Shown here in pieces: positions 11,001-43,170 of a stretch of 64,000 nucleotides of DNA. Position numbers and translations under genes: made by a program. The DNA is from Tribonema minus. Lineage: Eukaryota; Sar; Xanthophyceae; Tribonematales; Tribonemataceae. Position 1 is the first letter of the stretch. Every line of letters begins with the position of its first letter. Under the pieces are notes generated by a model that did not search any database, was not told the origin of the DNA, and was given only the letters and a program-made list of their open reading frames with translations. The DNA lies in assembly GCA_017506865.1 (NCBI GenBank), contig JAFCMP010000235.1:496001-560000 (forward strand), given 5' to 3'.

Positions 11001-13556
11001 ACGCCTACCACACCCATGACACTGATACCCGATCCCTTGGCTACGGAGGAGTCCTCATTGCGCGTCAGTGCCACCGACCGCTGCGGACCTCAAAACCTGA
11101 TGACTGTGCCTGCACACTCCGAAGTGTAGAGAGAAGTATATGGGAGCATATCGGGTAGACTATGCACGTGAGCTTCGCGCTCCGAGACGCACTCACGAAG
11201 GCAGCGGCATCTGCCACCACTAACCCTAACCCTAACCCTAAGCGGTGAACACACGCCAGACCGCCGTGCGAAACAAACGACTCTGTCAGCTCCAAACACA
11301 TCGCCCATGCAGTGACTTGAACAAAACAGTCACTCATGCGCAGAGTCGCCGCTGCACTCACCTGGCCGCTCCCTTCCGTTGTGGTCTACGGCTCAAGATA
11401 AGTCACTCAGTCACTCACCCGCTTACTCGCCGCCGTCCAATTCACCATGGCCGCAGGATCCACCATCACAGGGCCGCCCATATTACGCGGCTCAGATGAC
11501 TCACTTACTCACTCACTCACTCACTTGTGGAGCTACTCACCATGGCAGTGGGGTCCGCCATCACCTGGCCGCCCGACGACGCCACCACCTGCAGCGGCTG
11601 CTGCATCACCGGCACCACCACCGGCGCCGCCGCCACCACCGCAGCAGGCGCGGGCGGCCCAGGCGTGAACTCCTTGGCCTTAGGGTTGAACTTGAACTCC
11701 TTGGCGTTGGGGTTAAACTTGAAGCTGAGCTTGCTCGCCTCCTTTGCGGGCGCTGCCATAGCGCCCCCAGCCGCCAGCTTTGGCACGTCACTGACAACGG
11801 CCGCCTTCGCCGCGGGCTGCGCGGCCACTTTGGCGCCCGCAGCAGCAGCGGCGGGAGCCGCTGCGGCGCCGTCCACAGCTGCGCCCTGCAGCAGCGCGGC
11901 TGGCGCAGCGGCAGGCACTGCCGCATTCTCCGCTCCCGCTGCTGGCGCCGCCGCCGCCGCCTTGGCCGCCTTGTCCCGGAGCTCCGTGGCAGCGGGCGCC
12001 GCCGCCGTCGTGACGGTGGCGGAAGCGGCCTTGCTCATGTCAGCGCTCGCCGGCGGCGCCACGCTGCCCTGCACCATGGCCGCCCAAGACATGGTCCTCT
12101 TAGGTGCCCCCACGTCCCCCGCAGCCGCTGCGCCCCTCCCAGCGTCCTCGCCGCCGCCCTCCGCTGCTGCTGCTGCCGCCGCGGCAGGCGGCGGCGGCGG
12201 CGACGCCGGCTTGCCGGACGGCGGCAGGCCCGGCGGCGCCGCGAGCCTGTCCGTCCGCTCCGCCGCCGCTGCTGCCGGCAACTCCTTCCTGTTGACGCCC
12301 AGCTGCAGCACGCCCGACAGCTCCGCCTTGGCGGCCTCGCGCATGCGCAGCGCCGGCGGCCGGTACGCCGTGCCCGCGGCTCCGCCGCCGCTGATGCCAA
12401 TGCCGCTGCCGCCCCTGCCCGTCGCGGCGCCGCTGCTGCTGCCGCCGGCGGAGAATCGCCCGCCTGCTGCTATGCCATTGCCTCTCGGCGCGCCGCCGCT
12501 GCGCGCGTCAGCGAGCAGCGCCGCCGTGCTCGTGCCTCTGCCTGCCAGGCCGCCTGTGCCCAGGACGCCGCTGTAGCGGGCCTCCTCGTCGTCGTTGTCG
12601 TTGTCGGCCTCCCGGGCCTGGTTGCGCTCCTCGCGCAGGTGGGGGTTGGAGGACTGCTTGCCCTCTATCTCGCGCGCCAGCCTCTCCGCGTGGCTGCGCA
12701 TCGCGGGTGTCAGCTTGGACTTGTCCAGCTGCGTCGTGTAGAGATTCTCGTCGAAGCTGGACTTGACGTTGAACAGCCTCTCGTTGGCCTCGAATTGATC
12801 CCAGGCGCCGGCACCGGAGCCCCCCCCCATGCCCCTGCCGCCCATTGCGTCGCCAAGGCCACCCTTACTGCCGCCCTGCTGGGGCAGCGGCTCTAGCCAC
12901 GACGAATCCGCGGCCTGCAGCTCGCGGTCGCCGCCGCCTCGGGAAGGGCGAGCGCTGATGTCGGTATCCGTAGCGAAATCCATCTTCTGGCCTCGGTGGG
13001 CCAGGGGGAAGGACGGTGCATGCAGCTGCACAACGTCCCGCGCCTGCAGGCACAGGGTGGACCCCACCTCTCCGTTGCGGGACAGCCGCAGCAGGATGGT
13101 GAAGGCCTGGTCTCTGAAGGGGGTGCAGGTGTGCAGGATGCCCTCATGAGACGTGCCATCCCTCATCTGCAGCTGCACCCGCTCCCCCACCAGGACCTTG
13201 GCGAAGGCTATGAACCTCTCCCTGCAAGCCAGCAGGTAGCCATCGGCGCTGCTCCCATTGACGCCGGTGCTGCCTCCGGAGGCTGCCGTGCCACTGTTTT
13301 TGGTGCCGCCTACGGCACCGGAGGCACCGGCCGGCGGACCATCGGCACGGGAGGGGCCAGCCTGTCCCCTGTCCACCATCAGAGCCCTGCCTGCGAAGCC
13401 GGAGTCCTCCTGCTGCAACGCAGAGGGGATGCTCTCCAAAAGCAGCTCACCGACGGGGGAATCAGGGGGCTTGCTCTCCGGAGCGAATTCGAACTGCTTT
13501 GCGCATACATGCCTCCAGTCCCAGTTGCTACTGTAGGTTTGCTTCAGGTCTTTCAT
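8033..13556 (-). CDS. Ataxin-2/Pbp1 homologue with Gln-rich exons
   Basis: The first coding exon (13556-11541, 672 codons) carries, in order, a Sm-like SM-ATX domain at about residues 112-183 (RFIAFAKVLVGERVQLQMRD), an acidic TDTDIS stretch near 196, an LsmAD domain at about 252-313 (WDQFEANERLFNVKSSFDE), a long Ala/Pro/Gly region, and a doubled PAM2-like motif near 609-632 (FNPNAKEF then FNPKAKEF). Ataxin-2 proteins bind RNA and, through PAM2, the MLLE domain of poly(A)-binding protein, and act in stress granules and mRNA turnover. Four downstream exons fit: 10601-10359, 9572-9429, 8991-8713 and 8344-8033, of 81, 48, 93 and 104 codons. All are phase 0 and all are Gln/Met/Pro-rich, like the C-terminal half of animal ataxin-2. 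A 24-base microexon ending at 11362 is possible. The stop codon was not located. Exon 1 is firm; joins to the Gln-rich exons are inferred. Confidence 0.85.
9580..10190. repeat. Imperfect tandem repeat inside an ataxin-2 intron
   Basis: At least four diverged units share the core GCAGCAGCGATGCTCAGCGA followed by (A/G)CAGCGCTCA, then ACACAGGTGC, and then a stretch with CATCTGCCG. Cores begin near 9592, 9699, 9781 and 9968, with uneven spacing of roughly 80-190 bases. The array fills the intron between exons 9429-9572 and 10359-10601. Confidence 0.6.
11220..11242. repeat. CCCTAA telomere-like tract
   Basis: Three to four CCCTAA units in the intron after ataxin-2 exon 1, in the orientation opposite to the tracts at 465-574. 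Confidence 0.8.
11398..11600. repeat. Duplicated exon-end/donor segment with (TCAC)n
   Basis: The plus-strand sequence around the ataxin-2 exon 1 donor (11530-11580) is repeated in diverged form at about 11439-11490. The copy would encode a similar end, VMADPTAM against MVDPAAM, again followed by GTGA. TCAC/CTCA microsatellite runs lie between and beside the two copies (about 11400-11420 and 11500-11527). Confidence 0.6.
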
Positions 13557-14523: not shown

Positions 14524-17500
14524 TCAAAACGACTCGCTGCGCTCCCTACGCCTGCCGCTGCCGCCGCCGCCGCCATGGCTCCCCCTGCTCGCCTTCATGG
14601 CTGCGAGGGCGGCTTCGCGCAGCTCCGCCTCGCGCTCCTGAGCAACCGCCTCACCGCCGCCGCCGCCGTCGCCTGGCGAAGACCAATCACTGTCAATGCC
14701 GCCGACCGCGCCGCTGTCGTCCCAGCCCTCGTCAGCGGCAGCGGCATCGCCATTTGGCGGCGGCGGCGCCCAGCGGCCGTCGCTGCCGCTGCGGCGCCGG
14801 CCGCCGCCGCCGCCGTTGCGCTCAATCTCCGCACTGTAGCTGCTGCTGCCGCCGCTGCTGCGGCTGCGGCCGCGGCGCCCGCGAGCTGGGGGCGCCACCT
14901 CCTCATCACTGGCCCAACTGCCGTCATCCCTGCCGCCGCCGCCGCCGCCGCCATTTCTCGCCTCCCTCTCGTGTCTGTGGCTGCTGCCACGGCCACCGCT
15001 CCTGCCGCCGCCGCCGCCCTCGCCCTCGCGCCGCGGCCGCCTGTCATCACCGCCTCTCTGGCGGCGCGGCCGCGCCTCAGGTGACGCGCTCCTGCTGGCG
15101 CTGGGCGCTGCTGCGGCCACCGGGCTCTCGCTCTCACGGCGCCGCCGCTGGCGGTGCTTATGCACTTGGCGCGCTTCGCCGCCGCTGCCGCCGCCGCTGC
15201 GCTCCTCGCGACCGCGGGCTCTCAGCGGACTCGCGCTGCGCTCACTGCTGCCGCCGCGCTTGCGCTCTGCGCGCCGGCTGCCGCGGCCCTCGCCGCGCGG
15301 CTGCTTGGGCGGGGGCGGACTCGCGCTGCTGCCGCTGCTGCCCGCGCGCGCGGCGCCGCGGCGCTCGTCGCGCGGCGGCGCTGCTGCAGCCGGGCTCGCG
15401 CTGCGCTCGCCCTCATCCGCCTGGCGGCGCGCGCCGCCGACGCGCTGCTCCCGCCGCCGCTTCGGCGGAGGCGGGCTTATGCTGCGCGCTGCTGCGGGGC
15501 TGGCGCTGCGCTCGTCGCGCGCGCGCCGCCGCCGCCCGCCGCGTGGCAGCAGCGGGCTCGCGTCGCGCTGCGCGCCGCGCTGCAGCAGCGGGCTGCCGCC
15601 GTCGCTGTCCTCGCTGCGGCCGCGCGCAGCACGGCGTGGCGGCGGCGACGGCGGAGGGGCGCTGGCGCCATGGCGGCGCTGCGGCCGCGACAGCAGCGGG
15701 CTTGACCCTGAGCTGCTAGACGCGTCCTCCTGCTCCTCATGAGCGCGACTGCTGCGCGTGCGCGGCGGCGGGCTCATGCTGCCTTCCTCCTGCTCCTGAT
15801 GCCTGCTCGTCCGCCTGCCGCTCTGGTGAGCCCCGCGCTCGGCACCAGCGCCGCCGCGACCGCCGCCGCGACCGCCGCCGCTGGGCGGCTCTGTGCTCGC
15901 GCTGCGGTCCGCGCGTCTGCCGCCGTCGTCGCGGCGCGCGCGCTGCTGCCGCGGAGGCGGCGACGGGCTAGCACTGCGCTCGCGCCTTTCCGAGCGCCGC
16001 GGCGCAGTCGGCTGCTGCGCGCTGCGATCGCGCGGCGCGTGCTGCGGAGGGGAGGGGCTGATGGCCCTCTCCCGCCCGCCGCCGCTGATGCCGCCGCCGC
16101 CGCCGCCCGCGCCGCTGCCGCGCCAGGGCCGCTGCGGGCTCGTGCTGCCCTCCCGCGCTCGCACGTCCCACCGGCGCCGCCCAGGCTTTGCGGCTGCGTC
16201 ATCACCCGCACGCTGCTGCTGCGTCGCATCTGGGCTCGCGCCGTGCGCGCGCATGTCCCACCTGCGCCTGCCACCGCCGCGCTCCGCAGCTGCGGGTTCG
16301 CGCTCTGCCGCGGCGGCGCTGCCGCCGCTGCGCACCGCTGCCGCCGCCGGCGTGCGCCTGTCCCACTTGGACGCCCTCTCCTCCTCCTCGTCCGCGATCA
16401 TGCGCCGCGGCGCCGGTGGCGGCGGCGGCGTCGGGCTGGGGCTGCGCTGCTGCTGCTGCTCCCGCGCGCGGCCGCGCGGCGCGGGGCTGCGGCTCCTGCT
16501 GTCGCGCTGCCGCGCCGCGCGCCTGCGCTCCTCCTCGCGCTCCCTGTACTGGGCGCGCTCTCGCTCGCGCTCTCGTTCGCGCTCCCTCTGGCGCTCCCTC
16601 TCGCGCTCGCTCTCGCGTTCGCGTTCGCGGTCGCGCACCGCATCGCGCTCCCGCCGCTCGCGGTCACGGTCGCGGTCCCGGTCGTCGTCGCGGCGGCGCG
16701 AGCGGCTGCGGCTCCTGCTCCGGCTGCGCTCGCGCGTTGCCGCGCCGCGCCGCCCATCGTCGCCGCCGCCGCCGCCGCCGTCGTCCCACCGCCGCCGCCT
16801 GCCGCTGCCGCCCTCCCCGCGCGCCGCGCCGCCGTCTGCCGCCTGCGCCGCTGCGGCGGGCGCCGCCGCCGCCGCCGCCGCCGCCAGGGGCGCCGCGGGC
16901 GCGCCCCAGCGGCTGGCGCGCTTGCTGCCCGCGGCGCCGAAGGGCTCCGGTGCCGGCGCCGGCGCCGCCGCCTGCTTCTGCGGCACGGCCTGGAACGGTC
17001 CGGGGGCGGCGCTCAGCGCGGCGGCGAGCGCTGCGGCCTGCGCGGCCTGCGCCGCCGCCGCCGCCGCCTGCTGCGCGAGCATCTCCTCCTTCTTCTGCTC
17101 GAGGAACGCGGCGGGGATGCCGCCGGGGCACGCCTGCGCATCCGCGAGTAGCGCCCAGAGCTCCTCCATGAACGGGCGCGTCGCCTTCTCGAGGAAGCCC
17201 GTGAGCTGGAGCTGCAGCTTGCGTGGGTCGAGCCGCGCCGAGTCGGCGGAAGCCTCGAGGAAGTTGATCGCCGTGCCGATTACAATGTCGTCCTCGTAGC
17301 CGAGGAGCTGCGTGATCTTGCCCGTGATCCACTTGGACATGACGGGCAGGTTGACCTTCTTCATGTCCACCTGCGGCGGGGAGGGGGAGGGGGGGGGGGT
17401 CGGGGGGGCGGCGGCTGTGCGGTAAGGGGGGTGGTGCGGGCGGGGGGCTGTCAGTGCTCAGGCGTGGGTGTCTTAGGTGACTATGGCGTGGCGTGTGGGA

Positions 17501-19423: not shown

Positions 19424-19836
19424 TGATACGGCTTGGGGGTGTATTCAAACAGTTACAGGCAGTTACACCTCACAGGTTGGCACAGGTCTCAGTAGACCTG
19501 TGTAGTCGGTGTAGACCTTGACATGTGATTGAGAGCTGGCCTGACCTTAGTTGAAGGCAGGTGCAACTAGTTGGGTCACATGCCAAAGGGCACATCAAAG
19601 TAGCATGCACAGCATCAGAACCCCCCCTGCAAGCAGCAAGCCCGAACCTTGCTGTGCCAGCCATCGTCCAGCCCCAAGCCTTCCGTCTCTCAGCAGCAGA
19701 ATAAAATATCCGGTAAGCGTATCGCGTTTCCTTTCGCATAACATTTCATTTGAGTTCTCTGAAGCGTGTCTACTTGTTTTGCTCTTCCAGCTTGCTTGTT
19801 TGCATTCATGACAGCATCACAAGGTAAGCCGCTTCA
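19424..19836 (+). repeat. 5' LTR
   Basis: 413 bp, starting TGATACGGC and ending CCGCTTCA. It contains AATAAAATA at about 19702, a donor-like CCG/GTAAGCG, an acceptor-like TTGCTCTTCCAG about 80 bases later, and a second strong donor AAG/GTAAGCC 12 bases before its end. It differs from the 3' LTR at six positions: five transitions and one A/T. Confidence 0.95.
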
Positions 19837-19839
19837 ATT

Positions 19840-19856
19840 TGGCACCCGAAGACAGT
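19840..19856 (+). promoter_or_regulatory. Primer binding site for minus-strand DNA synthesis
   Basis: TGGCACCCGAAGACAG begins three bases after the 5' LTR. TGG pairs with the CCA end of a tRNA, as in most LTR elements. The tRNA identity was not assigned. Confidence 0.8.
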
Positions 19857-20042
19857 CCTTACCTCGTGCTAACCCCGCCCGCAAGGGCAGCAGCGTGGTG
19901 ATCGCTGTCCAATGTATCACTGCTCGAATCGTGTCAAAGCCTTTCGAGGACCCAGATTACGTAAAGCAATACGTAAAGAACAGCCGTGGGAAGCGAGTTA
20001 AACGTTAATCACGCTAGGTTCCTGCACTAGAATGCTTATGAC

Positions 20043-20083
20043 GGGGCGGCGTAGTGGTGCACCGCTACGTCGTGACCCGCCCC
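20043..20083 (+). other. Leader hairpin with GGTGCACC palindrome
   Basis: GGGGCGG (20043-20049) can pair with CCGCCCC (20077-20083). Inside it, CGTAGT-GGTGCACC-GCTACG forms a near-perfect palindrome. It sits in the untranslated leader, where retroelements keep dimerisation and packaging signals. A palindromic GUGCAC loop is one of the two known HIV-1 dimer-initiation types. Function is inferred. Confidence 0.5.
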
Positions 20084-20548
20084 CTTGATGTCAACGACGC
20101 AGTGCGTGCTGCACGGGTCTGAGCAGCAATGAACATGCAACTTCATTTAGCTGGCCTTATTCTGCGGCTCATCTGTGGTTGATGAACGTGGTCACGTGGA
20201 CCCATATAGGACATCGAGGGTAGACCCGTGCGGTAGCGCGCTGTGTACACCAGCTTGCGCGCCGTACACTATCACGTCACGAACGCACCAGAGTCTCCCG
20301 GGAGAACGCGCGGAGATCCTTTAGGGGGGACACGTGATAGCTTGTGTATCAGAAGTCACAGAAACGGTAGTGACTTGTCATAGACAGTGTTAAGTGGTTG
20401 CACTCGAGAAGTCTCGAGAATAAGCGCACAAAGGGGCATGCGCTGCCACTTTTCTGGCTGTAACGGTTGCCTATGACTAGAATAAAAACCCTACCGCATG
20501 CTTTTCCTTAGTAATTTGCTCTAAAGCTGATATGACTAGCTTTTTGCA

Positions 20549-20564
20549 AAGAAGGGGGAGAGGA
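20549..20564 (+). promoter_or_regulatory. Second polypurine tract in the leader
   Basis: AAAGAAGGGGGAGAGG shares 14 identical bases (GCAAAGAAGGGGGA, including the preceding GC) with the 3' polypurine tract. It could prime an extra plus-strand start, but its position upstream of gag is unusual. Confidence 0.4.
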
Positions 20565-20823
20565 GTCTAGCTTAAGAGCAAAGCGATGCAATTTTGCTTC
20601 ATGATTGTACGGCCGCAATTGTGTTGCAGAATTGACAACGCGGTCGATCTGTACAACTGCTATGTCAAACTGGCTGGCTTGCAGTTCAGAGTGCCCTAGT
20701 AGCATCAGACCTCGTGCAGAGGCGTGCGGGGCATAGACGGCTCGTGCGCTGACAATTTAAAATCATGGTTTTGTCGTCGCACTCAGCTTCATGCGCGTGA
20801 ATCGTGTGCAGGATACACCATAA

Positions 20824-23289
20824 ATGGTCAAGACTGACCATGGCTCCAAGAAGCCAACGAGTGGGTCAAGCCGCAGCGGAGGTGTTAGTGGCGGTGCTAG
20901 GCCTGCTGGCAGCACTGCTGCTAAGAGCAACAAGGGCGGTCAGCGCTCCGCTACGCGCCCCGCACCAAGCTCGGGTGACAAGCCGTCACGCCCCCCTCCC
21001 CGGCCCGCGGCAGCGTCCGCACAACCCAGCCAGGTCGGTGCCAGCGCGCCCGACACGTCTGCCTCGGTACGGTCCACAGAATCAGTAGTCACTGGTGCCG
21101 CACCTCCTTTTATACGTAATTTCGCTGAGTCCAGCGACGAGCCCGGCGGTGGCGGCTCAGAAGCCGAAGCCATAGTGGCAAGGCAGTTACGTTTGAGGCA
21201 GAAAAGAGAACAGCTTGCAGCAATGGGCATTATGCTTAGCGAAGCCCAGGTAGCAGAAGGCGAAGAAGCTTTTGCACGTGCAACTGTTGAGAAAAAACTC
21301 GCACCAACGAAAAGCCCACGCAAGACACCGCGTGCAGCTGCAACAACCGCGCCAGTTGTGCCGGTAGCCGCGCCAGCTGTGCCGGCAGCGCCCGCGAAGT
21401 CTGCGGCGCCAGCACCTGCAAAGTCCACAGTGCCAGTTGCAGCACTGGTTGCGCCCGCGGTGGCCCCACCTAAGGTCGCGCGCAGTCAGCCGGCCAAGAC
21501 GTCGGTTACGCGCGGTGCACGGGTCCCAGTTGCGGCGCCTGAAGTAGCACCGGCGGCTCCGACGCCTCAGAGCTCCAAGCCATCAGCTAGGCTAGTGGCT
21601 CCCACATACTATACTGCACCAGCGAGGGCCCCTGAAGCCTCAGATAAATCGCCTGTGACGCAGCCGCGTCGGGGTGCAAGTGGTAAGGCGCGGCGTGTGC
21701 CAGTTGTGCCACGTAGCGTGCCAGTCGTGCAAAGTTCGCCAGTTGTGCCACGTAGCGCGCCCGTCATACCGCGAAAGCCAGTTGAGCAACAAGCGGCAGA
21801 GCGACGGAGGGCAGTTAGGCAACTGCTCGAGTCTTCTGAGTCATCTGGTGATGAGGGTGGTGTGCCCTTTGATCCTGAGGGCACAGATGAGGCTTATGAC
21901 CAGTGGCGTGAGGGCATCGAAGCTCGCGTCGAGGCACATAAGCGAGCTGCCAAGGCCGCCAAAACGGCTGCAACGTTCGCCGAAATTCACGAGCGTGCCC
22001 TTTACGAACGCCTTGGCGAGCTCCAGCTTCGCGTCACCAGAGCTCCTAGTGAGAGCAAGAACATGGTGAAGAACTCACTGCTGCCGATGGCGCGGACGTT
22101 CGCTGCGGAGCAGGCCGAAGAGGTGCGCAAGCATAATGTTGCACTTCTGGAAAAACGTGGTCATGACTTCAAAGCTAGCCAGTTCGGCGAGCTGCTGACC
22201 ATAGGTGAACACCGTAAGCGGTCCAATAGTTGGCATCGCTTCGCCTTCGGCACAGGCGACGGTGAGGAGGCGGAACTCTGGCGAATGCTAAGGGAGTTCG
22301 AGAACACGCCTCTGGTCACCGAGGAGGCGCGCCTAGCTGCGGACACTTACCCGCGCAGCCTGGTGACGCACCCGTTCCTCAACACTGACGGGCACTCCGA
22401 CACGTCGGACGACGACGCAGCCGGCGCAGCTGCGAGTCCGCGTGAAGATGGCGCAGTGGCCGGCGTAGCCACCAGCGCATCGGCTCTAGGTGAGAGCATT
22501 AGGACTGCGGGGGCAGTAGAACCCTCGTACTCCTCAGTTGCCATGACGGTGCGGAAACCCAAAGTTGACTTGAGGGGTTTCGGCGGCACTGGCGTCGTCA
22601 TTGTAACGCAAGTAGGCAGGCTTGAAGCTTCCATTAGAGCTTTTGAGCGTAGCTGCGACACGCGTGGCGTGCCCAAGTCGGCCTACTCAGAAGCGCTGTT
22701 GCAGAGTCTGACCAAGAGTCAGTACGCTGATCTGACCAGCGCAGTCACCAATGAGCGCACGGGAATGCTAGAAACTCGTGCGTTTAGTGATTTGTCTTAT
22801 GAGCAGATGGTGCAATGCCTTACGGCAGCGTACGATAGCACATCTGCCAGGCAAATAGCACTTCAAAAGTATCATGAACTCACGCGTACCTCCGGTACCA
22901 GCCCCGAAGTGTGGGGCAGGGAGGTAGTTGCAGCCGCGCACGACGCCGGCTGCGCGGACAACCAGCAAATTGTTCGTATGAAGTTCGTTCATGAACTGCC
23001 ATTATGCTGCCGTCAAGAAGTAAACGGCATGTATGAGACCTGGGATCTAAAGAACACCGCTTTTCCCAAGGTCGTGGCAACTGCCCAGCAAAAGTGGCAG
23101 GCAGCGCCTATTGACGAGCGCGAGACTCGAAATGTTGTGTCTGCAATGGCCGCGGCACACATCTCAACCCCCCCTACTCTGACACAGGCAAGCGCCCTGC
23201 CAAGGATGGGTGGAGCGTGGTCAGTAACGACCATCGCTATAAAAAGAAGAATAAGCTTTCGGCTGTTCGCGCTGTGTTGGCGGGGCTGA
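20824..23289 (+). CDS. gag: Retrotransposon Gag polyprotein
   Basis: 821 residues. The first ~600 are Ala/Pro/Ser-rich and include degenerate PVVP/VPVAAP repeats and several acidic clusters. Residues about 590-770 hold a capsid-type region like the retrotransposon gag domain (AFERSCDTRGVPKSAYSEAL; YHELTRTSGTSPEVWGREV; KFVHELPLCCRQEV). No CCHC zinc knuckle occurs in the gag frame; a Cys/His cluster lies instead at the start of the pol frame. The ATG at 20824 follows an acceptor-like GTGTGCAG at 20805-20812, which could be joined to a donor in the LTR. The stop at 23287 lies 175 bases into the region where the pol frame is open, so Gag-Pol is presumably made by -1 frameshifting. Confidence 0.9.
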   Translation: MVKTDHGSKKPTSGSSRSGGVSGGARPAGSTAAKSNKGGQRSATRPAPSSGDKPSRPPPRPAAASAQPSQVGASAPDTSASVRSTESVVTGAAPPFIRNFAESSDEPGGGGSEAEAIVARQLRLRQKREQLAAMGIMLSEAQVAEGEEAFARATVEKKLAPTKSPRKTPRAAATTAPVVPVAAPAVPAAPAKSAAPAPAKSTVPVAALVAPAVAPPKVARSQPAKTSVTRGARVPVAAPEVAPAAPTPQSSKPSARLVAPTYYTAPARAPEASDKSPVTQPRRGASGKARRVPVVPRSVPVVQSSPVVPRSAPVIPRKPVEQQAAERRRAVRQLLESSESSGDEGGVPFDPEGTDEAYDQWREGIEARVEAHKRAAKAAKTAATFAEIHERALYERLGELQLRVTRAPSESKNMVKNSLLPMARTFAAEQAEEVRKHNVALLEKRGHDFKASQFGELLTIGEHRKRSNSWHRFAFGTGDGEEAELWRMLREFENTPLVTEEARLAADTYPRSLVTHPFLNTDGHSDTSDDDAAGAAASPREDGAVAGVATSASALGESIRTAGAVEPSYSSVAMTVRKPKVDLRGFGGTGVVIVTQVGRLEASIRAFERSCDTRGVPKSAYSEALLQSLTKSQYADLTSAVTNERTGMLETRAFSDLSYEQMVQCLTAAYDSTSARQIALQKYHELTRTSGTSPEVWGREVVAAAHDAGCADNQQIVRMKFVHELPLCCRQEVNGMYETWDLKNTAFPKVVATAQQKWQAAPIDERETRNVVSAMAAAHISTPPTLTQASALPRMGGAWSVTTIAIKRRISFRLFALCWRG
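23169..23175 (+). promoter_or_regulatory. Candidate -1 ribosomal frameshift heptamer
   Basis: C CCC CCT, read in the gag frame, fits X XXY YYZ. It lies in the 23115-23289 window where both frames are open. The other candidate, A AAA AGA near 23237, re-pairs less well. No pseudoknot was checked. Confidence 0.45.
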
Positions 23290-26200
23290 GCGCTAACGAG
23301 CGTCGCCAGCTTGGAGTCAGCGACCGCGCGCCGCAGGGCAAGGCTAGCTCCGCAGGCGATAACGGCGGCGGCGGAGCCAAGCCCCAGAGCAACTTCAAGT
23401 GTCTTGGCTGCAGAGTGAACCAGGGAGACTGGGACACACTTATGCGGCACAAGACTACCTGCCCTCAGTGCATTGCGCACCGAAAGAGGATGGCAGAAAA
23501 GCACCGCCAAGGTGAATCACACTTGCAGTTGTCTGCTGCCTTGGTAGGAAGTGACTTGCCTGCTGCAAGTTCAGCATCAGCAATCAGTGAATTGCCTGGT
23601 GTAGTTAGAGCAGATGCATGTTCGGCACAGGTAGCTGAGCATGCCACTGACGCTGTTTACGATGTCTCTTTGCGCGCACAGATGGCGGCAATTGAGGGTG
23701 GGCCAGAGCCACCACCCAGAGTTATCAAACACGCGTCTATCTGCTGTGGGGCGCTAGGAGGCGCCATAGCTGGGGGTAAGTTGACCTCCAGAGCAGGTTT
23801 TGTAACACGCACGGTGCTCGCAGTTGACAAAGACGTCAAGGCAATTGAGGCTCTGCATGAAGTTCATCCAGAAGTGCCCACGCTCACTGCATGCATCACT
23901 GATGCGAAGGTTGTTGCACGTCTCATCGACGAGAAACCTGACGTCACCACCATCTCGCCGCCCTGCACAGATTTTTCGGCAGAGGGCAAGAAGGTCGAGG
24001 GCGAAGCTGCCGAGTGCACGGTCCATGCCGCACGGCTCATCGTGCGGGCCAAGCTTCGGGTGGTGTTGTATGAGAATGTGCCAGGAGTGCTAGTGTCACG
24101 CGCGTTTGCACGCGCAGTACGCATTCTCAAGTCGGCTGGTTACATGCTGTACATTGCCAAGTTAAAGGCTTCTGAGTTTGAAGTACCTTGCAGGAGGCAG
24201 AGGGTGTACATTGTCATAGTACCAGCAGGGGTGGCCTCACGTGAGGCGCTCCAGAGGTTCGGTGCGGTAATAAATACCAAGCGTTTACACAGCAGACCCA
24301 CATCTGTTCGCTCTCGCTTGCGCTGCCCCGAACGCACATTCTTCTTGCAACCACGCAGTGCTCAGCACCCTGGTGTTTTGGATGCTGATGGCTTGTTGCC
24401 TAGCCCAGTGCGCAGACTGCCTGGTAGGCCCACTGCGAGTTATGTTGCACATGCAAAAGACGCTGGTCCAGTGGCATCTGCCCGCTTGCTGTCGCTTGCG
24501 GAAATGGCAGTGCTCATGACGTATTATCATGAATTACCAGCGAGTGCATGCAGTAGTGATGTACGGCGTTACATTGCAGACTTGTTCATCCCAGAGATGG
24601 CATTTCACTTGTTCGTGGCAATTGAGGCCTCAGGCCTGTGCACACTGCCAGAACAACAGGTACGTTTGCCGCGTAGGTCAGACTCTACGTTGAGGCATTC
24701 AGTTGACTGCCCGCCCCCGTCTTGGTTGGCTGGTCAGAGTGGTTCGCTGGTGCAGGCCGCTACCGCGGTACACGCAGCGCCCACGTCAAGTGCACACTGC
24801 TCAGCAGCAGTGGCGCGTAGCATACATGCAAAGGCGCATGATGCAGGGTATGCAGAGGTACCCATAATTCCGATGCGCAGTGCATGGGAAGAGCCAGAGG
24901 TAGACTTGGCTGTGGTGCAGCCCGGCATGGCTGACATCGTGGAAGTCGATGACTCTGACTCAGGGTCTGACTCTGAGTGGGACTCACAGTCAGTTATGAG
25001 CGTTTGCAGTAGCGCAGACGACATGGACATTGACACAGAAATCAGTGCTCCACCCATTGCGGCCGCAGCGGCACGCAAGAAGCTCGGCGGCGGTACAGAC
25101 CCGCGCCTTGCCCCAGGTGAGTTGAAGGCAGCGCTCAGGCGCGCTGGCCTTGATGCTCAGTCTCTAGGCATATTAGACCATGTGCCAGGTGTCAGCAAGT
25201 TAGACACAGCCCCACCAGTGAGTGTGGCAGAGACAATTAAGAATCTCACAGAAGAGATCACAAAACAGAGGGAACCAGTCAAGTTACCTCATGTAGGCCT
25301 TGCAGTAGGGTCCCCTGAGCCTAGCTCGGTAGAGCGCTCCAAGTCGGAGGCTCCAGTGGAGTACATACGCCCAGTAGCCGGTGTTGTACCTCCAGGGCAG
25401 ATGTTTGTGTCCGCGTCGTTACGCGTACAAAGCAACTCTCAGACGCCCAAAGAACTCTATGTGCGCGCCATGGTAGACTGCGGTGCGACCGTAACCATCA
25501 TGGGCAAGCGCATTGCAGACAAGCTCCCCAACAGCTATGTATGTACACCTCAGCAAGGTGACTACACTGAGATCCTCTTGGCAGACGGCAAGACGTCGCT
25601 GCAGATCAGTGGTGTGGTCAATGCATGGCTGCGGTTTAAGAACAAGATGTTCTTGCACAAGTTCTATGTGGTGAACGCACCCATGGACGTGCTCTTAGGT
25701 ACGGATTTCTTTGCCCCGCATGGCTCAGTCATCTCGTATCACGGCGGTAGCCCAGCCTTCTTCCCAGGGGGACTAAAAGGTGTGGCCATACGCCCCATGC
25801 ACGACAAGAATCGCGCAGACAACGCGAACGCGCATGCGGCAGCACTAGCCAGTTGCAAGGGCAATGGCAGCGCTGAGAGCACTGAGGCACCAGACAAGCC
25901 TCAGCAGTGCTCAGCTAGGATGGCATATAACACTGTACTGGCACCATCGTCGGAGACGATTGTGGAACTCACGCTGCTACCAAAGCCAAAGCGCGTGCAG
26001 CCCTATGAGGCATTGCTCATGCCACAAGAAACAGTGACTACAGAAATGATGAGAGGCAAAGGTGTTAAGGCAAATATCACCGCTCTCACTGTAAATGCCA
26101 GCGGCACGATATACGCTACATTGAGCAACACTTCAATGTACCCGGTTTACGTGCGCCGCAACACGTATTGGGGAAAAGTGACTCCAATTAAGGCTGATGA

Positions 26201-29200
26201 TCTGCTAGAAGTGCAGACAGCTACTCAGCAGGCTCTAGAAGCCAAACTGCTAGTAATAGCAGCCAAAAGGCACTCTGAAAATGCTAAGTTAGTGGCAGAA
26301 TTAGCTGCTAGCATAGGCAAGACTGCCAAAGAGGTTGCACAAGAAGTGCAACGGCTGGCAGACCTCAGCCAGCGCCACAATGACCAGCTAGAGAACTGCA
26401 CAGATGCAGAGCTGGAGGAAATCCTTGTGAAAGATGGCAGGCTTGCGCCTCATTTGCAAGGAAGGGGGAAAGATGGGGTACTTTTGAAAACAAAAGCACT
26501 TGACATGCTAAAAAAGCACAGGAATGTCTTTGCTAAGGACCCTAAAAACCCTCGAGTCACTCAGCATTTTGAGATTGATGTTGACACTCAGACGGCCGAG
26601 CCGGTGGCGGACAAGGCACGCCATTGGGCTTTCAAAGAAGCCGAGTACATCATGAAACAGATTCAGATGATGGCAAAGCGCCAACAGATTGAGCCATCAG
26701 CTAGTGCGTGGGCAAGCAACCCAGTACTAGTGGTTCAAGGCGACAAGATCCGCTTCTGCATAGACTTCAGGAAGTTGAATGCGGTCACGAAGCGTGATAG
26801 TCATGGCTTAGGCAACATGGATGACATGATGCGGGCTGTGCAAGGTGCGAGGATCTTATCTTCGTTAGATCTGGCAGCGGGTTACCATCAGATCCCGCTG
26901 GCCAAGACGGCTAAGGCCAAGACGGCCTTCAGAGCCCCAGACGGCTCGTTGTGGCACTACAAGGTGGCGCCATTCGGGCTGGTGAACTTGCCAGCGCAGT
27001 TCACGAGATTGATGCACCAAGTGCTGGGAGATGCCTTAGGCTCCCACGCGCTAGTGTACATAGATGACGTGTTGGTGTATGGCACGGACATCGAGGAGCA
27101 CATCGAGCAGTTAGATGATGTTCTTGGCCGCATAGGCGCGGCGGGCATGAGTGTATCTCGCCCAAAGTGTCAGCTATTTCAAGCTGAAGTCAAGTTCCTA
27201 GGCCATATAGTTGGCGCCGCTGGAACAAGACCAGACCCTGACAAGGTCAAGGCCATGCTTGACATGAGCCCCCCACTGAAAGGCGGGGTACCAGACAAGC
27301 AGTTGGTACAAGTGGTTATGGGAGTGTTTAACTATTACAGGCGATATGTACCCGACTTTGGGGCGATATCAGAGCCTATAGTAGCCCTGACCAAGAACAA
27401 AGCAGTCATGGTTTGGGGGTCTGCGCAAGAGCGGGCTTTCAAGCGGCTGAAGAGTGCCATGTGCGACAGTCGCATAGTGATGCACCCAGATTTCAGTTTG
27501 CCTTTCGTATTGTACACCGACGCCTCCAAGACGGCGACGGCAGGTGTGCTTACACAATTCAGACCTGTGAGTGAGGTCGAAAGGGCAACAGCGGGACAGC
27601 CATATGCTCACACGGGCAGGCGCCGCATAGCTGAAGGCGAGGAGGTCAGAGAAGTAGTCGTTGGCTACTTCAGCAAGCTGAACTCTGAACCCGACGCGAA
27701 GTTAGGAGCGACGGCAGTAGAGTGTCTGGCAGTAGTGCTGGCGCTCAACCACTTCAGGCCTTACATTTGGGGTAACCCCGTTACAGTGGTCACAGATGCC
27801 GCTGCGCTCAGGTGGCTGTTGACGTTGCAAGACTACAACGGCAAGCTACTAAGATGGGCCATGCGCATACAGGAGTATGACGTTACCATTCAGCACAGGC
27901 CTGGCAAAAGGAATGCCAATGCTGATGCCCCATCCAGGCTGCCACAGCAGGCAGAGTTAGATGCTGAGCGCTCTACGGAGCCAGCAGACGAACAGTGGCC
28001 AGACGCAGTCCCGAGCATGGACGCACCGCCGTCAGGTGTGCGCTTTGCGGACGAGGCCACGAGAACGCACAAGGTGGCCGACGTGAACAGCTGTCGTGGG
28101 TACACGGCGGACGCACGTTACGGGCCAGCGTTCAAGTTCAACGAGGCCGTCGCCATATCAGGCGCGGTGGCCGCTAGGTTAGCCGCTCTGACAGCTGTGG
28201 AGCTAGCACAGTTGTTGGACAGAAGGCTAGATGACTCCACGGTGGAGGAAGCAGAGGTTGATGAAGTTGAGATCAACACAGCGTACGCAGAGCCAGTCAA
28301 TAAGTACACCGGCTCGTGGGAGCATTCCCAAGCGCAGCGACTCTTAAGGCAGATCGCATGCGACAGGCGACGCAGCATCAGCTCAAAGAGGGCCAAGTGC
28401 AACGTCACCACGGCTCAGCCGGCGGCAGACTCATTGGAAGAAGGAGAGATTCCAGAGGTAGAAGCTGCTGCTGATGCAGATGAGGCAGACGAGCCACCGG
28501 ATGGCGAAGCTGTTTTAGGCAAGCGCAAGAAGACGCTGCCAAGGCCAGAAGTAGTGCAGTTGCTGAAACGGGTGGCCGAGGGAGACTCGCCTGCCACGCC
28601 AGCAATGCTCAGCAGAGCCGCATTTCTTGAAGTTCAGAAAGCGGACGGCTTCTGTCGAGCAGTGAGCAAGATGCTCATTGAGGGTGACATACCCGAAGGC
28701 GCGGAGCTAGCCGCTCACGTCTTAGCACAGAGAGAGCAGTATACCGTCGAGGAAGATGGCCTCTTGGTGCACAGTTCAACAAGCCACCCCAAGAGAGGTA
28801 TGGTGTTGTTGCAGTGGGTCGTGCCAGTGGTGCTACGAACCCTAGTCATGCGTTTAGGGCATGATGACGCGAGCGCTATGCATTGCGGCATAGGCGCTAC
28901 GCACACGCGTATATTCGAGAGGTATTTCTGGCCTGGTATGGGCGCAGACATACGAACGTACGTGCAGAGTTGTATGACGTGCCTAGAACGCAAGCGCGCC
29001 AGCTCCACTCAATATAAGCAGTGGTTGGCTGAGCCAGTGCGCATGTGGCAACGTCTCAACATTGATATCACAGAGCCTGGTATCCAGTCCGCAGCGGGGC
29101 ATAAATATGTTCTGACTATTGTGGAGACGAGGTCCGGTTTTGTATGGCTAGCCGCTATGCATGGCCAGGGTACTAAAGATGTAACCCCGCACCTCATGAC

Positions 29201-30824
29201 AGTGTTCCTAGAGGTTGGAGCATTAGTGGAGGAACTATGCTCAGACAAGGGCAAAGTCTTCCTTGGCAATGTGGTCAGTGACCTTTGCAGAGCGTTTAAA
29301 GTTAAACGCATAGAGACCAGTGCATACCACCCACAGACCAATGGTGTGGCAGAACATGCAAATGGTCGTGCTAAGAAGGCACTAGCATCTTGGGTCAGCG
29401 CTCAGCAGACAAACTGGCACGAAGGCTTAGAGCTCGTACAGTTTGTGTTGAGGACAACTCCCCGAGATGAAACAGGTTTAACACCCTTTTTCTGTGTGTA
29501 CGGTCGGGAGGCTTCACTGCCACATGATGCGTTTATGCACGAGGATGGCAGCAGGAAGTTGGACCTGCACGAGGAGATTGAGCACAAGCTGGATATGCTT
29601 GAGCTTGCAGACAAAGTGGTGTCAAAGGCGCTGCAAGTGCGCGCCCAGAAGATCACCAAGCGCAATGAAGCTATTAAGCGCGCGGTGAAGTTCGCCGTCG
29701 GTGACTATGTCATGATACGGCTGCCCAGACAAAGAGACAGGTCGGCTGCTCTTGATGCCAGGTATGTGGGGCCTTGGCAGATCGAGGCTCGCACAGGCGA
29801 ATCAGGCCTCTCATTCATCTGCAGGATGATGGGCAGAAGAGTTAGACACACCACAGCTCATGTTGAGAACATGAAGCCCTTCCACATGAGGCCTAGTGCC
29901 ATGTTGGAGCCAGGTGTGCACGCCATGCTGAGCCCCCGACAAGTGGAGGAGCTAGCAGATGGTGAGAAGTTATACAGAGTTCTGGACCGCCAAGCGGGCC
30001 CCAATGGCTCGTGGCAGTACAAATGGCAGTCCATAGATGGCAAGTCACATGCGTGGGTGTCAGAGGATGACATGCTGCAAGAAGTGACGCCATGGACCTT
30101 AGACGCTTTTCACGCGCTCTATGAGCTGCGCAACGAAGGAAGGTTGCCGGCATATGCCATCAGGCCCACACCTAAGGAGGATGCTGGCATGCGCCGAGAG
30201 AGCGCGCTGCAACTCTATCCCATCGGCACGGCGCTGGTCAGGGAGCACAGAACGGTAGTGGGCGGCCCGATCACTTACGTGTGGGGGGCCGTTAAGAACT
30301 TTGTGTCACCATACTGGAGGATCAGATATGAGGATGGTGAGTGGGAACAGATGACCCGTACACAGGTCAAGTCTGCCATACAGTTGGCAGAGGCAGTGCG
30401 TGACAAAGCCAAGAAGTTGCAGGCGCAAAGCGCGCCGGACAGCGCGAGTAGTGCAAGTCCCAACTCTCAGGTCACGCGAGGTCTGCCACCTTCCCAAACT
30501 AGTTCTGAGGCAAGCTCAGCCCAAGATTCTGCTCAGCCGCAGATCTCGCTGGTAAGGCTGCCCAAACTGCCATCTGATTTCGGATCAGACTTTGAGGGTG
30601 AAGTGATCTGGTATCACTTTCCAACAGGCTGGAGCCGCGGCGTCCTGGGTGAGTTTTACCCCGCCAGGTCGCAGTTCACGTTTGATGTACTATTCGACGG
30701 TGAGAAGACTGTCAGGCGTATGCGCTTACGTCCGGGTGACTACCGCACGCCAAAAGACAGCCCATACTCATCGTGGAACGTGCTCGCCGCTCGCAGTATA
30801 TCCTCAGAGGAGAGTGCGAAGTAG
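23217..30824 (+). CDS. pol: Pol polyprotein with embedded C5 DNA methyltransferase and chromatin-reader tail
   Basis: 2535 residues from the GTG at 23217; the frame is open back to 23115, where -1 frameshifting from gag would enter. Domains by residue: a Cys/His cluster CLGC...CPQC (~62-85); a C5 cytosine methyltransferase (~170-473) with SICCG (motif I), AVDKD (II), SPPCTDFS with catalytic Cys 250 (IV), YENV (VI), RRQRV (VIII), a ~95-residue recognition region and a motif IX/X-like end; an aspartic protease at ~745-850 with DCGA in place of DS/TGA, and LLGTDFF; RT with YIDD (~1281); RNase H (LYTDAS, ~1434); integrase with an HHCC zinc site and a D,D,E core (NIDIT, CSDKGK, GVAEHAN); a GPY/F-like module (YVGPWQIEAR); a chromodomain-like segment (~2250-2290); and Tudor-like segments (~2335-2385, YWRIRYEDGEWEQM; ~2460-2510, FDVLFDGEKTVRRM). 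The methyltransferase has no BAH or replication-targeting domains, so it resembles short bacterial/phage-type enzymes. Confidence 0.95.
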   Translation: MVSNDHRYKKKNKLSAVRAVLAGLSANERRQLGVSDRAPQGKASSAGDNGGGGAKPQSNFKCLGCRVNQGDWDTLMRHKTTCPQCIAHRKRMAEKHRQGESHLQLSAALVGSDLPAASSASAISELPGVVRADACSAQVAEHATDAVYDVSLRAQMAAIEGGPEPPPRVIKHASICCGALGGAIAGGKLTSRAGFVTRTVLAVDKDVKAIEALHEVHPEVPTLTACITDAKVVARLIDEKPDVTTISPPCTDFSAEGKKVEGEAAECTVHAARLIVRAKLRVVLYENVPGVLVSRAFARAVRILKSAGYMLYIAKLKASEFEVPCRRQRVYIVIVPAGVASREALQRFGAVINTKRLHSRPTSVRSRLRCPERTFFLQPRSAQHPGVLDADGLLPSPVRRLPGRPTASYVAHAKDAGPVASARLLSLAEMAVLMTYYHELPASACSSDVRRYIADLFIPEMAFHLFVAIEASGLCTLPEQQVRLPRRSDSTLRHSVDCPPPSWLAGQSGSLVQAATAVHAAPTSSAHCSAAVARSIHAKAHDAGYAEVPIIPMRSAWEEPEVDLAVVQPGMADIVEVDDSDSGSDSEWDSQSVMSVCSSADDMDIDTEISAPPIAAAAARKKLGGGTDPRLAPGELKAALRRAGLDAQSLGILDHVPGVSKLDTAPPVSVAETIKNLTEEITKQREPVKLPHVGLAVGSPEPSSVERSKSEAPVEYIRPVAGVVPPGQMFVSASLRVQSNSQTPKELYVRAMVDCGATVTIMGKRIADKLPNSYVCTPQQGDYTEILLADGKTSLQISGVVNAWLRFKNKMFLHKFYVVNAPMDVLLGTDFFAPHGSVISYHGGSPAFFPGGLKGVAIRPMHDKNRADNANAHAAALASCKGNGSAESTEAPDKPQQCSARMAYNTVLAPSSETIVELTLLPKPKRVQPYEALLMPQETVTTEMMRGKGVKANITALTVNASGTIYATLSNTSMYPVYVRRNTYWGKVTPIKADDLLEVQTATQQALEAKLLVIAAKRHSENAKLVAELAASIGKTAKEVAQEVQRLADLSQRHNDQLENCTDAELEEILVKDGRLAPHLQGRGKDGVLLKTKALDMLKKHRNVFAKDPKNPRVTQHFEIDVDTQTAEPVADKARHWAFKEAEYIMKQIQMMAKRQQIEPSASAWASNPVLVVQGDKIRFCIDFRKLNAVTKRDSHGLGNMDDMMRAVQGARILSSLDLAAGYHQIPLAKTAKAKTAFRAPDGSLWHYKVAPFGLVNLPAQFTRLMHQVLGDALGSHALVYIDDVLVYGTDIEEHIEQLDDVLGRIGAAGMSVSRPKCQLFQAEVKFLGHIVGAAGTRPDPDKVKAMLDMSPPLKGGVPDKQLVQVVMGVFNYYRRYVPDFGAISEPIVALTKNKAVMVWGSAQERAFKRLKSAMCDSRIVMHPDFSLPFVLYTDASKTATAGVLTQFRPVSEVERATAGQPYAHTGRRRIAEGEEVREVVVGYFSKLNSEPDAKLGATAVECLAVVLALNHFRPYIWGNPVTVVTDAAALRWLLTLQDYNGKLLRWAMRIQEYDVTIQHRPGKRNANADAPSRLPQQAELDAERSTEPADEQWPDAVPSMDAPPSGVRFADEATRTHKVADVNSCRGYTADARYGPAFKFNEAVAISGAVAARLAALTAVELAQLLDRRLDDSTVEEAEVDEVEINTAYAEPVNKYTGSWEHSQAQRLLRQIACDRRRSISSKRAKCNVTTAQPAADSLEEGEIPEVEAAADADEADEPPDGEAVLGKRKKTLPRPEVVQLLKRVAEGDSPATPAMLSRAAFLEVQKADGFCRAVSKMLIEGDIPEGAELAAHVLAQREQYTVEEDGLLVHSSTSHPKRGMVLLQWVVPVVLRTLVMRLGHDDASAMHCGIGATHTRIFERYFWPGMGADIRTYVQSCMTCLERKRASSTQYKQWLAEPVRMWQRLNIDITEPGIQSAAGHKYVLTIVETRSGFVWLAAMHGQGTKDVTPHLMTVFLEVGALVEELCSDKGKVFLGNVVSDLCRAFKVKRIETSAYHPQTNGVAEHANGRAKKALASWVSAQQTNWHEGLELVQFVLRTTPRDETGLTPFFCVYGREASLPHDAFMHEDGSRKLDLHEEIEHKLDMLELADKVVSKALQVRAQKITKRNEAIKRAVKFAVGDYVMIRLPRQRDRSAALDARYVGPWQIEARTGESGLSFICRMMGRRVRHTTAHVENMKPFHMRPSAMLEPGVHAMLSPRQVEELADGEKLYRVLDRQAGPNGSWQYKWQSIDGKSHAWVSEDDMLQEVTPWTLDAFHALYELRNEGRLPAYAIRPTPKEDAGMRRESALQLYPIGTALVREHRTVVGGPITYVWGAVKNFVSPYWRIRYEDGEWEQMTRTQVKSAIQLAEAVRDKAKKLQAQSAPDSASSASPNSQVTRGLPPSQTSSEASSAQDSAQPQISLVRLPKLPSDFGSDFEGEVIWYHFPTGWSRGVLGEFYPARSQFTFDVLFDGEKTVRRMRLRPGDYRTPKDSPYSSWNVLAARSISSEESAK

Positions 30825-31066
30825 TTGTGGGGACTCAAGTTGAGTCAAAGCTGAGGCCGGCGACTCCCTTTTCCTGCAGAGAGGATTTCCCTGACTAGCA
30901 GGTTTGCCTCCCAGGTTTTTAATGGGGTTTCCAACCAGTTCTATATTGGCCTCCATGCTTAGTAGTGCACTTAGTGCGAGCATGCTGCAACTACACTAGG
31001 GACCGCGATCTGCTGCTTCGAGTTCAAGTCCGCATCGAGGGCGATGCTCAGCAAAGAAGGGGGATC
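30825..31066 (+). other. Element 3' untranslated region
   Basis: Follows the pol stop. It contains the palindrome GACTCAAGTTGAGTC at about 30832-30846, a stretch CAGGTTTTTAATGGGGTT similar in style to the conserved AGGTTTTTAACGAGG block before the polypurine tract of many plant LTR elements, and the tract itself at the end. Confidence 0.6.
31053..31066 (+). promoter_or_regulatory. Polypurine tract
   Basis: AAAGAAGGGGGA, then TC, directly before the 3' LTR. This is the expected primer for plus-strand DNA synthesis. Confidence 0.85.
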
Positions 31067-31479
31067 TGATACGGCTTGGGGGTGTATTCAGACAGTTACA
31101 GGCAGTTACACCTCACAGGTTGGCACAGGTCTCAGTAGACCTGTGTAGTCGGTGTAGACCTTGACATGTGATTGAGAGCTGGCCTGACCTTAGTTGAAGG
31201 CAGGTGCAACTAGTTGGGTCACATGCCAAAGGGCACATCAAAGTAGTATGCACAGCATCAGAACCTCCCCTGCAAGCAGCAAGCCCGAACCTTGCTGTGC
31301 CAGCCGTCGTCCAGCCCCAAGCCTTCCGTCTCTCAGCAGCAGAATAAAATATCCGGTAAGCGCATCGCGTTTCCTTTCGCATAACATTTCATTTGAGTTC
31401 TCTGAAGCGTGTCTACTTGTTTTGCTCTTCCAGCTTGCTTGTTTGCATTCATGACAGCATCACATGGTAAGCCGCTTCA
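31067..31479 (+). repeat. 3' LTR
   Basis: 413 bp, matching the 5' LTR except at six positions. The second donor-like site reads CATG/GTAAGC here instead of CAAG/GTAAGC. Confidence 0.95.
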
Positions 31480-32480: not shown

Positions 32481-32554
32481 TCACACTGACAGGAATTGAA
32501 CCTGCGTCTCCAGCGCATGTCTGCGCTGGTGTGCTTCCATTGCACCATGGTGTG
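32481..32554 (-). ncRNA. tRNA-like cloverleaf, copy A
   Basis: 74 bases with A-box-like TGGTGCAATGG and B-box-like GGTTCAATTCC, and normal D and T stems. Two acceptor pairs are lost relative to copy B (CACACCA against CAGTGTG). The anticodon arm is the long self-complementary CCAGCGCAGACATGCGCTGG, so it is not a decoding tRNA. Confidence 0.6.
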
Positions 32555-42064: not shown

Positions 42065-43170
42065 GACCTACATACCAGGGTATGGTGAACTTCACACCGA
42101 CAGGAATTGAACCTGCGTCTCCAGCGCATGTCTGCGCTGGTGTGCTTCCATTGCACCACGGTGTGTATGATGATATGCAAGTTGGCTACACATTGGATGA
42201 GCTTGTCGGAATTGAAGCACTCGTAATATGAAAGCGTTGATTGTGCTCACATCACAATTGTAGGCAAAGTCTCTCTTCGTGGACCTGAACCGGCAAGGCT
42301 CAGTGCCAGGCCCCCGCACACAACAAGGTGGAGACCGCTTTCGCGGGGGAACTACCTACGCAGGCAACGCCGTAAAGTAGCGCGCCAAGCAACAAAAAGC
42401 CTACGAAACATCGAATCCCAGCACAATCTGCAAGACTTGATCGCAGCCTCCTTGCTCACAAGGCAGGCAGATTGGTCTGAGATTCGATGTACGCAGCCTT
42501 ACTGCTGCTTGACGTACTACCGCCAGACAAGAGCGTACTGCTGAACACAGGCACGGATGAGGAAGAGAGAGGGCGGCAGTCCCTCTCTCTTCCACAGGAG
42601 AGCCCCCATCGGCGGCTGGGTGCCCTCCCGCGGTTGTATAGCTACTTTTTCCGCCATCCGTGACTAAACTGGGCGCCGGCTCGGTGGTCTGAGGTTAGCA
42701 CAGCGGTACCACATCAGCACTGCTGCACTGCGCATCAGCGACAGCAGCTCTGCCCAGGCAGCCAACAAGTGGTTGGACTTATAGCTCATGGGACTCCTGT
42801 GTTTCAGCAGCAGCTCTTTTGTCTGGCATTTACCTGTTCGCTGCCGAGCCGGGCGCGATGCCTGGGCCAAAACGAAGCCGTTGTGGTGACCTCCAGACAC
42901 GCGCCCGCCATAGACCAAGTGCGCCTACGCCACCAGGGACGGCCTGGGCACAGCAGTTAATGACTGCGATTTCTTGCCCAAAGAAAGCAGAAATGCTTCC
43001 TTGCGATCAGGCTGCTTCTGATCGCCAGCCGCCAGCAGTGATGTGCCGTTGCCTCGCAGCGCCAGCCTGACACTCACAAACTGCCGTCAACCTCATTGCA
43101 GAACGCGGGATGCAAAGAGGCTCCTGGTGGTCGCAGGCTTAATCAGAGTGAGCGAAAAACCTCGATAGGG
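42065..43170 (-). repeat. 1.1-kb tRNA-like-ended repeat module, copy B
   Basis: Module in minus orientation. It ends at the palindrome edge GACCTAC (inverse GTAGGTC), which is also where copies C and D end, so GTAGGTC marks the true module terminus. It contains a GGAAGAGAGAGGG...CCCTCTCTCTTCC hairpin at about 42561-42592. Confidence 0.85.
42092..42165 (-). ncRNA. tRNA-like cloverleaf, copy B
   Basis: Best-preserved copy: acceptor CACACCG/CGGTGTG (7 bp), D stem GTGC/GCAC, T arm GCAGG-TTCAATT-CCTGT, discriminator A. The anticodon arm is a 5-bp stem with a 10-base loop GCAGACATGC that can itself close, leaving no readable anticodon after a U33. Confidence 0.65.

Follow-up and report, generated by a model that had tools for sequence, protein, structure and literature searches.

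A family of Ty3/Gypsy LTR retrotransposons in the genome of the alga Tribonema minus carries a predicted C5 cytosine DNA methyltransferase (DNMT) of bacterial type inside its Pol polyprotein. Our best explanation, to which we give a probability of about 0.6, is that a Gypsy lineage long ago captured such a methylase into Pol upstream of the reverse transcriptase (RT), kept it catalytically intact and split into at least 13 subfamilies, the enzyme perhaps marking the element's own cDNA.

The window, a stretch of 64,000 nucleotides of a Tribonema minus contig, holds one copy of the element at 19424-31479. Its features, in window coordinates, are:

19424..19836, + strand: 5' LTR (TG...CA), 413 bp, one of a 98% repeat pair
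19840..19851, + strand: primer-binding-site-like stretch TGGCACCCGAAG, 3 nt past the LTR, read from the sequence by eye
20824..23289, + strand: gag-like ORF, 821 aa, called gag from its position alone
23115..30824, + strand: open Pol frame, 2535 aa from the first GTG (23217), in a frame different from that of the gag ORF
23721..24626, + strand: 302-aa domain of a C5 cytosine methyltransferase (motifs I, IV, VI, VIII, IX and X)
25461..25712, + strand: retropepsin-like aspartyl protease (PF13975/PF13650, under the curated cut-off)
26742..27212, + strand: reverse transcriptase (PF00078, E 9.7e-27), used in the RT tree
27489..27878, + strand: RNase H (PF17917, E 5.4e-22)
28821..28997, + strand: integrase zinc-binding H2C2 (PF17921, E 1.4e-16)
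29049..29333, + strand: integrase core, rve (PF00665, E 6e-6, under the curated cut-off)
30282..30371, + strand: candidate Tudor-like module at the Pol C-terminus (PF21743, E 0.017, under the cut-off)
31053..31066, + strand: polypurine-tract-like stretch ahead of the 3' LTR, read from the sequence by eye
31067..31479, + strand: 3' LTR, 413 bp, repeat pair with the 5' LTR

The Ty3/Gypsy assignment was made on the PR-RT-RNaseH-INT order and the LTRs, together with a primer site and purine tract recognized by eye. Pfam placed the Pol domains in the order DNMT, aspartyl protease, RT, RNase H, H2C2 and rve, with DNMT, RT, RNase H and H2C2 above the curated cut-offs and the protease (22.4 bits vs. 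28.2) and rve (26.9 vs. 32.6) below them. A Pfam search of the gag-like ORF (20824-23289) gave no match, and the gag-DNMT-protease order by Pfam refers to the window's copy. The two LTRs differ at 6 of 413 sites, and no target-site duplication was found at this copy, the one looked at. The preliminary description had called the flanking RT, RNase H and integrase intact, which stands for the pol frame but not necessarily for the element as a whole, since gag and pol lie in different, overlapping frames in this copy. Long single frames elsewhere in the genome (16 of the 123 PF00145 places sit in frames of at least 3000 aa) suggest that the two are probably just out of register here and not joined by a programmed frameshift. 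Chromatin-reader modules in the Pol C-terminus were considered and dropped (Pfam E of just 0.017 and 0.027; C-terminus model pLDDT 41).

Several other features were noted in and around the element. A Cys/His-rich stretch (CxxC...H...CxxC) lies ahead of the DNMT at 23400-23471; L025-L030, the six larger loci that belong to the same group as the window, have it too. Host-like neighbour genes encode an Ataxin-2-like protein (LsmAD, SM-ATX, PAM2) and a PWI-domain protein (11517-13556 and 14524-17370, both on the - strand). Four tRNA-like stretches (32481-32554, 42092-42165, 46762-46835 and 49189-49262; two per strand) all received the odd anticodon call gaca, and Rfam backs two of the four; they are likely SINE-like repeats.

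The preliminary description had placed a complete C5 DNMT between gag and protease with its motifs in order within one open frame, and both points held. Pol residues 185-333 match PF00145 (E 2e-17), and the domain at 23721-24626 shows motifs I (CCGALGG), IV (SPPC), VI (ENV) and VIII (RRQR) and IX/X-like ends, in the standard motif numbering. An AlphaFold (AF2) model of the domain reached a pLDDT of 92.3 and a pTM of 0.89, and all 50 matches listed in a fold search against PDB were C5 methylases (TM 0.57-0.69 to the query). The best match in a viral fold library was a 599-aa protein of 'Siphoviridae sp. ct0yh16' (0.83), which, at a guess, may combine two LlaJI-like methylases. Motifs I, IV (Cys), VI (ENV), VIII (RxR) and X and the fold agree with a C5 cytosine methyltransferase (PF00145), and sequence and model together confirm a complete domain of this kind inside a Gypsy Pol, with predicted activity. 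A chance occurrence is ruled out by the recovery of 62 full-length domains, the window's among them, and by the confident fold of the latter.

Across the 158-Mb genome, PF00145 matched at 123 scored places among 378 candidates, with open frames of at least 1000 aa at 88 places, at least 2000 aa at 48 and at least 3000 aa at 16. Four of these places differ in kind: L001-L003 look by eye like virus-type methylase genes, and L004 groups with DNMT2 in the tree. L001, L002 and L003 (G000 contigs C223 and C181) stand alone as C5-methylase frames of 367-390 aa without introns. L001 adjoins an ORF that by eye resembles a nucleotide kinase, and L001 and L002, which form a separate firm branch in the DNMT tree, could be left over from a large DNA virus.

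Seventy places were fetched and combined with the window (71 places), and two lineages picked by RT were added (73 places). An uninterrupted full-length domain was present in 60 of the 71 places (window included) and was interrupted or partial in 11; all sampled places but two were selected on their PF00145 score, a choice biased towards intact motifs. Clustering of the 60 domains with a distance threshold of 25% gave 11 groups. An RT search of the genome (151 matches; 150 of 499 candidates scored) provided the two further lineages, chosen via RT alone and with no DNMT hit listed for them; a DNMT domain is present in each. The 73 sampled places thus comprise 13 diverged DNMT subfamilies, with identity down to ~20%, a family that the preliminary description had not noticed. 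An RT was found in 18 of the 20 larger loci, the exceptions being L015 (piece too short) and L027 (none downstream), and lies 2.2-3.2 kb downstream of the DNMT where both starts were read; in groups 8, 9, 12 and 13 the distance by coordinates is 2.7 kb. This arrangement, with the RT 2.2-3.2 kb 3' of the DNMT, was seen in 10 of the 13 subfamilies (groups 1, 3-5 and 8-13). The one downstream stretch read for group 6 showed no RT, with integrase-like letters there by eye. Just upstream of one DNMT element lies a second, antisense partial DNMT frame (L016:3-1328, - strand), which suggests nested or clustered copies.

All 62 full-length domains (window included) retain the catalytic Cys, N and V within ENV and the two Arg of motif VIII, and all five catalytic residues are present in 61, one copy having D in place of E. 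The loss of catalytic residues that had been named as evidence against function was therefore not seen in full-length domains, alongside the 11 of 71 sampled places that are interrupted or partial. In 8 of the 62 the residue just ahead of the catalytic Cys is not Pro (6 S, 1 N, 1 L). Using simple Nei-Gojobori counts, with medians taken from pairs with pS of 0.02-0.6, median dN/dS was 0.18 across 344 pairs of group 11, 0.13 across 13 pairs of group 9 and 0.13 across 9 pairs of group 2; the small groups 5 and 10 gave 0.24 (1 pair) and 0.52 (3 pairs). Among seven named pairs (four between-group, three within), six had a dN/dS of 0.14-0.21 and the group 10 pair 0.52; dS in the between-group pairs was 1.5-2.4, close to saturation. 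The DNMT domain is under purifying selection.

CpG depletion was tried as a footprint of methylation and dropped. Observed/expected CpG was 0.81 in the element, 0.80 in a nearby repeat-rich stretch and 1.05 and 0.99 in gene-rich host DNA; there is no element-specific deamination signature, because the element's ratio is not below that of its repeat-rich neighbourhood.

The preliminary description had proposed that self-methylation could hide the element as silenced chromatin or control its copy number. A related reading is self-restraint, in which the enzyme would mark integrated copies, allowing host silencing to hold their number down and sparing the host. That full-length copies sampled from each of the 13 subfamilies keep their catalytic residues (D for E in a single copy) agrees with this idea, which is discussed for other elements in the accessible text of PMC5890265, but the copies are numerous and many near-identical, with at least 19 RT places (window included) tying at the top score over 200 aa. 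Profiles for host 5mC readers and DNMT1 (SRA, DNMT1-RFD and MBD) found no match in the host, and none in the control genomes either, which leaves this negative without weight. We consider self-restraint quite unlikely.

A profile built from 18 element domains was searched against PDB for the type of the enzyme. It matched DNMT2, M.HaeIII, M.HhaI and DNMT1 chains, and others that we take to be plant CMT and fungal DNMT5, with DNMT2, an RNA methylase, heading the matches. No DNMT3A/B chain was among the best 60 of the 64 rows and DRM2 appeared at E 0.83; the element enzyme is therefore not of the Dnmt3 type found in published Gypsy and DIRS elements. The host was placed through two nuclear rbcL fragments, scored against RuBisCO chains whose source organisms we assumed for each PDB entry. 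The first scored 103 bits against red-type chains and 59-63 against most green ones, and the second 72-78 bits against red-type and some bacterial chains, against 62-66. By these sequence scores the host is likely a red-plastid alga, perhaps an ochrophyte, and a charophyte host is excluded, provided that the fragments are the host's own. The genome also contains an 18S sequence, to which group probes matched weakly (HETERO01 with 1 mismatch, CHLO01 with 2, CHLO02 with 2 in one copy). Both results bear on whether the element is simply the known Dnmt3-carrying Gypsy of the Klebsormidium kind, with which it shares the superfamily and a DNMT in Pol (PMC5890265, as far as its accessible text goes). 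The absence of DNMT3A/B from those best 60 rows, DRM2 at E 0.83 and the red-type RuBisCO fragments of the host all argue against this identity, and we hold it to be very improbable.

Bacterial relatives were also found. A tblastn search into phage records led to MT837117.1 (L091), in which genes for an AAA protein and an RE_LlaJI protein come after those of two compact C5 methylases; initially taken for a possible retroelement, this human faecal 'phage' record is a LlaJI-type restriction operon. A scan of bacterial genomes returned 73 loci with relatives 27-73% identical. In profile-profile alignments, the match between the element domains and ten LlaJI-type methylases extended across 286 of 296 columns (E 1.2e-43), and that with ten Dcm-like methylases across just 160 (E 5.2e-37). 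With the set split by clade, clade A (groups 5-11 in the alignment) scored 263 over 285 columns against the LlaJI set and 215 over 162 columns against the Dcm-like set, whereas clade B (groups 1-4) scored 259 over 308 columns against the Dcm-like set and 222 over 287 columns against LlaJI; the LlaJI match of the whole set is therefore carried by clade A. These alignments place the enzyme of the window's clade (A) with LlaJI-type restriction-modification methylases, while by the same scores clade B fits the Dcm-like bacterial set better than LlaJI. The metagenome proteins P0003 and P0004 were 58 and 62% identical to the window domain over 75 and 53% of its length. P0005 looks by eye like group 2, and a search of viral contigs with P0001 found no relative. 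The suggestion in the preliminary description of an independent capture of a short bacterial or phage-type enzyme is supported by the lack of DNMT3A/B in the best 60 of 64 PDB rows, the full-length LlaJI match of the window's clade and the red-type RuBisCO of the host, and nesting within known element clades is disfavoured, as judged by enzyme type (not Dnmt3-like).

Three DNMT trees were computed from 42, 46 and 58 chosen rows (four rows dropped from the third), leaving out P0004, P0005 and most of the other proteins retrieved with them. In the 42- and 46-row trees the element domains form one side of a branch with supports of 86/73 and 90/85 (not starred), whereas the 58-row tree, with more bacterial rows, has two element clades (98/98 and 100/100) and a single clade is not rejected (p-AU 0.44). 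A 14-row RT tree does not conflict with the DNMT trees, with groups 8, 9, 10 and 11 together and groups 1, 3 and 4 together; group 5 belongs to clade A by DNMT and has a long branch and an unsure place by RT. An old single capture with long co-divergence or two captures would each fit these data. Under two captures, clade A (groups 5-13, the window's) would derive from a LlaJI-type methylase, whereas the source of clade B (groups 1-4) would be a Dcm-like bacterial one, each entering a similar place in Pol. The split that appears once more bacterial rows are added, the opposite preferences of the clades in the profile scores and an RT identity between them of just ~27-39% speak for this; the like position of the DNMT upstream of RT in both, the single clade of the two smaller trees and the p-AU value speak for one. 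We put two captures a little below an even chance.

The trees and alignments also bear on the possibility that the captured enzyme methylates RNA as DNMT2 does, acting on genomic RNA or the tRNA primer and aiding packaging or priming. DNMT2 is among the best PDB profile and fold matches and a retroelement particle contains RNA, but the element DNMTs do not join the host's or other DNMT2s in the trees, and the window's clade aligns from end to end with methylases that belong to a system for restricting DNA. RNA methylation accordingly receives a low probability from us.

The preferred reading, a captured bacterial-type methylase marking the element's own cDNA, starts from what was established directly, namely the position and completeness of the DNMT, conserved catalytic residues, purifying selection, a confident fold and a bacterial type; its further steps, translation included, are all conditional. 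The DNMT would be made as part of Gag-Pol and would travel into the particle alongside RT and integrase, presumably being released by proteolysis. In the particle it might use AdoMet to methylate cytosines of the new double-stranded cDNA, a step we hold tentatively and at rather less than even odds, and the mark would help the element survive or establish itself in the host nucleus. A restriction-modification-type enzyme points to self-marking in that sense and not to stolen host silencing, and the LlaJI kinship hints, by analogy, at target-specific marking. It is conceivable, if rather unlikely, that the modification component of a bacterial restriction-modification system was domesticated as a self-mark, such that cDNA methylated in the particle would be spared by a host defence against unmethylated foreign DNA. 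If so, the algal nucleus would hold a restriction-like, methylation-sensing barrier, and the retention of the enzyme by every sampled subfamily would be accounted for.

Self-methylation of cDNA was proposed by De Mendoza et al. 2018 (PMC5890265), and DNMT-bearing retrotransposons are known from dinoflagellates and charophytes, with mostly Dnmt3-like enzymes seen as stolen host genes. According to the accessible text of that paper, SymbioDIRS enzymes performed de novo CG methylation in yeast, and activity tests of KnitGypsy and SymbioLINE were negative and termed inconclusive by the authors. KnitGypsy-Dnmt3 of Klebsormidium nitens resembles the element here as an LTR Gypsy whose Pol polyprotein contains a C5 DNMT kept by purifying selection, but has a Dnmt3-type enzyme, a charophyte host and DIRS-like repeats (PMC5890265), in contrast to a bacterial-type enzyme, a probable red-plastid host and plain LTRs. 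SymbioDIRS-Dnmt3 and SymbioLINE-Dnmt of Symbiodinium likewise combine a DNMT within a retroelement, many copies and conserved catalytic residues; they differ, as described in the accessible part of PMC5890265, in their DIRS (tyrosine recombinase) or LINE backbones and Dnmt3 or orphan-type enzymes. SymbioLINE-Dnmt has its DNMT in ORF1 of a LINE, whereas the window's element has a Gypsy Pol with integrase and LTRs. The Dnmt3-type catalytic domain of KnitGypsy-Dnmt3 and SymbioDIRS-Dnmt3 was not matched here, as judged by enzyme type through the PDB profile search.

The available text of PMC6338049 mentions Dam- and Dcm-encoding retrotransposons in passing, without detail, for stramenopiles among others, and a Gypsy DNMT in stramenopiles may therefore have been seen earlier. 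For Ectocarpus Gypsy elements, the accessible part of PMC12477816 names chromodomain, Tudor and NADAR domains and no C5 DNMT. PMC12344493, in its accessible part, records retrotransposon-borne Dnmt3 members as well as 'orphan' DNMTs; within such excerpts, our literature search found no report of a bacterial-type DNMT in a Gypsy element.

LlaJI methylases (PMC1459862, in its available part; L091) are compact C5 methylases with which clade A aligns over the full length, including the target-recognition part, and the LlaJI target is GACGC/GCGTC. They differ in having a tandem second methylase and McrB/LlaJI-type restriction genes, as in L091, whereas the element has a single domain in Pol; a second methylase and McrB/LlaJI-type genes had no Pfam match in the window's Pol frame or gag ORF. 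P0002 (an ENA protein of 3030 aa) is a Gypsy-type Pol whose DNMT aligns full length with the LlaJI-type set, but there the DNMT lies between RNase H and integrase, a PHD finger is present and the RT is 31-37% identical to those of the elements here. Captures of LlaJI-like DNMTs into Gypsy Pol may thus recur, because P0002 carries its enzyme at another place in another Gypsy Pol. The principle of a DNMT in a retroelement is known, and the enzyme type, the host and the scale look new so far as the literature search goes: the family is large, its host is of a third kind beside dinoflagellates and charophytes, and its enzyme, of the bacterial restriction-modification type, is catalytically intact in 13 diverged subfamilies. 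With these, the question why a transposon carries a transposon-silencing enzyme becomes testable in many parallel versions.
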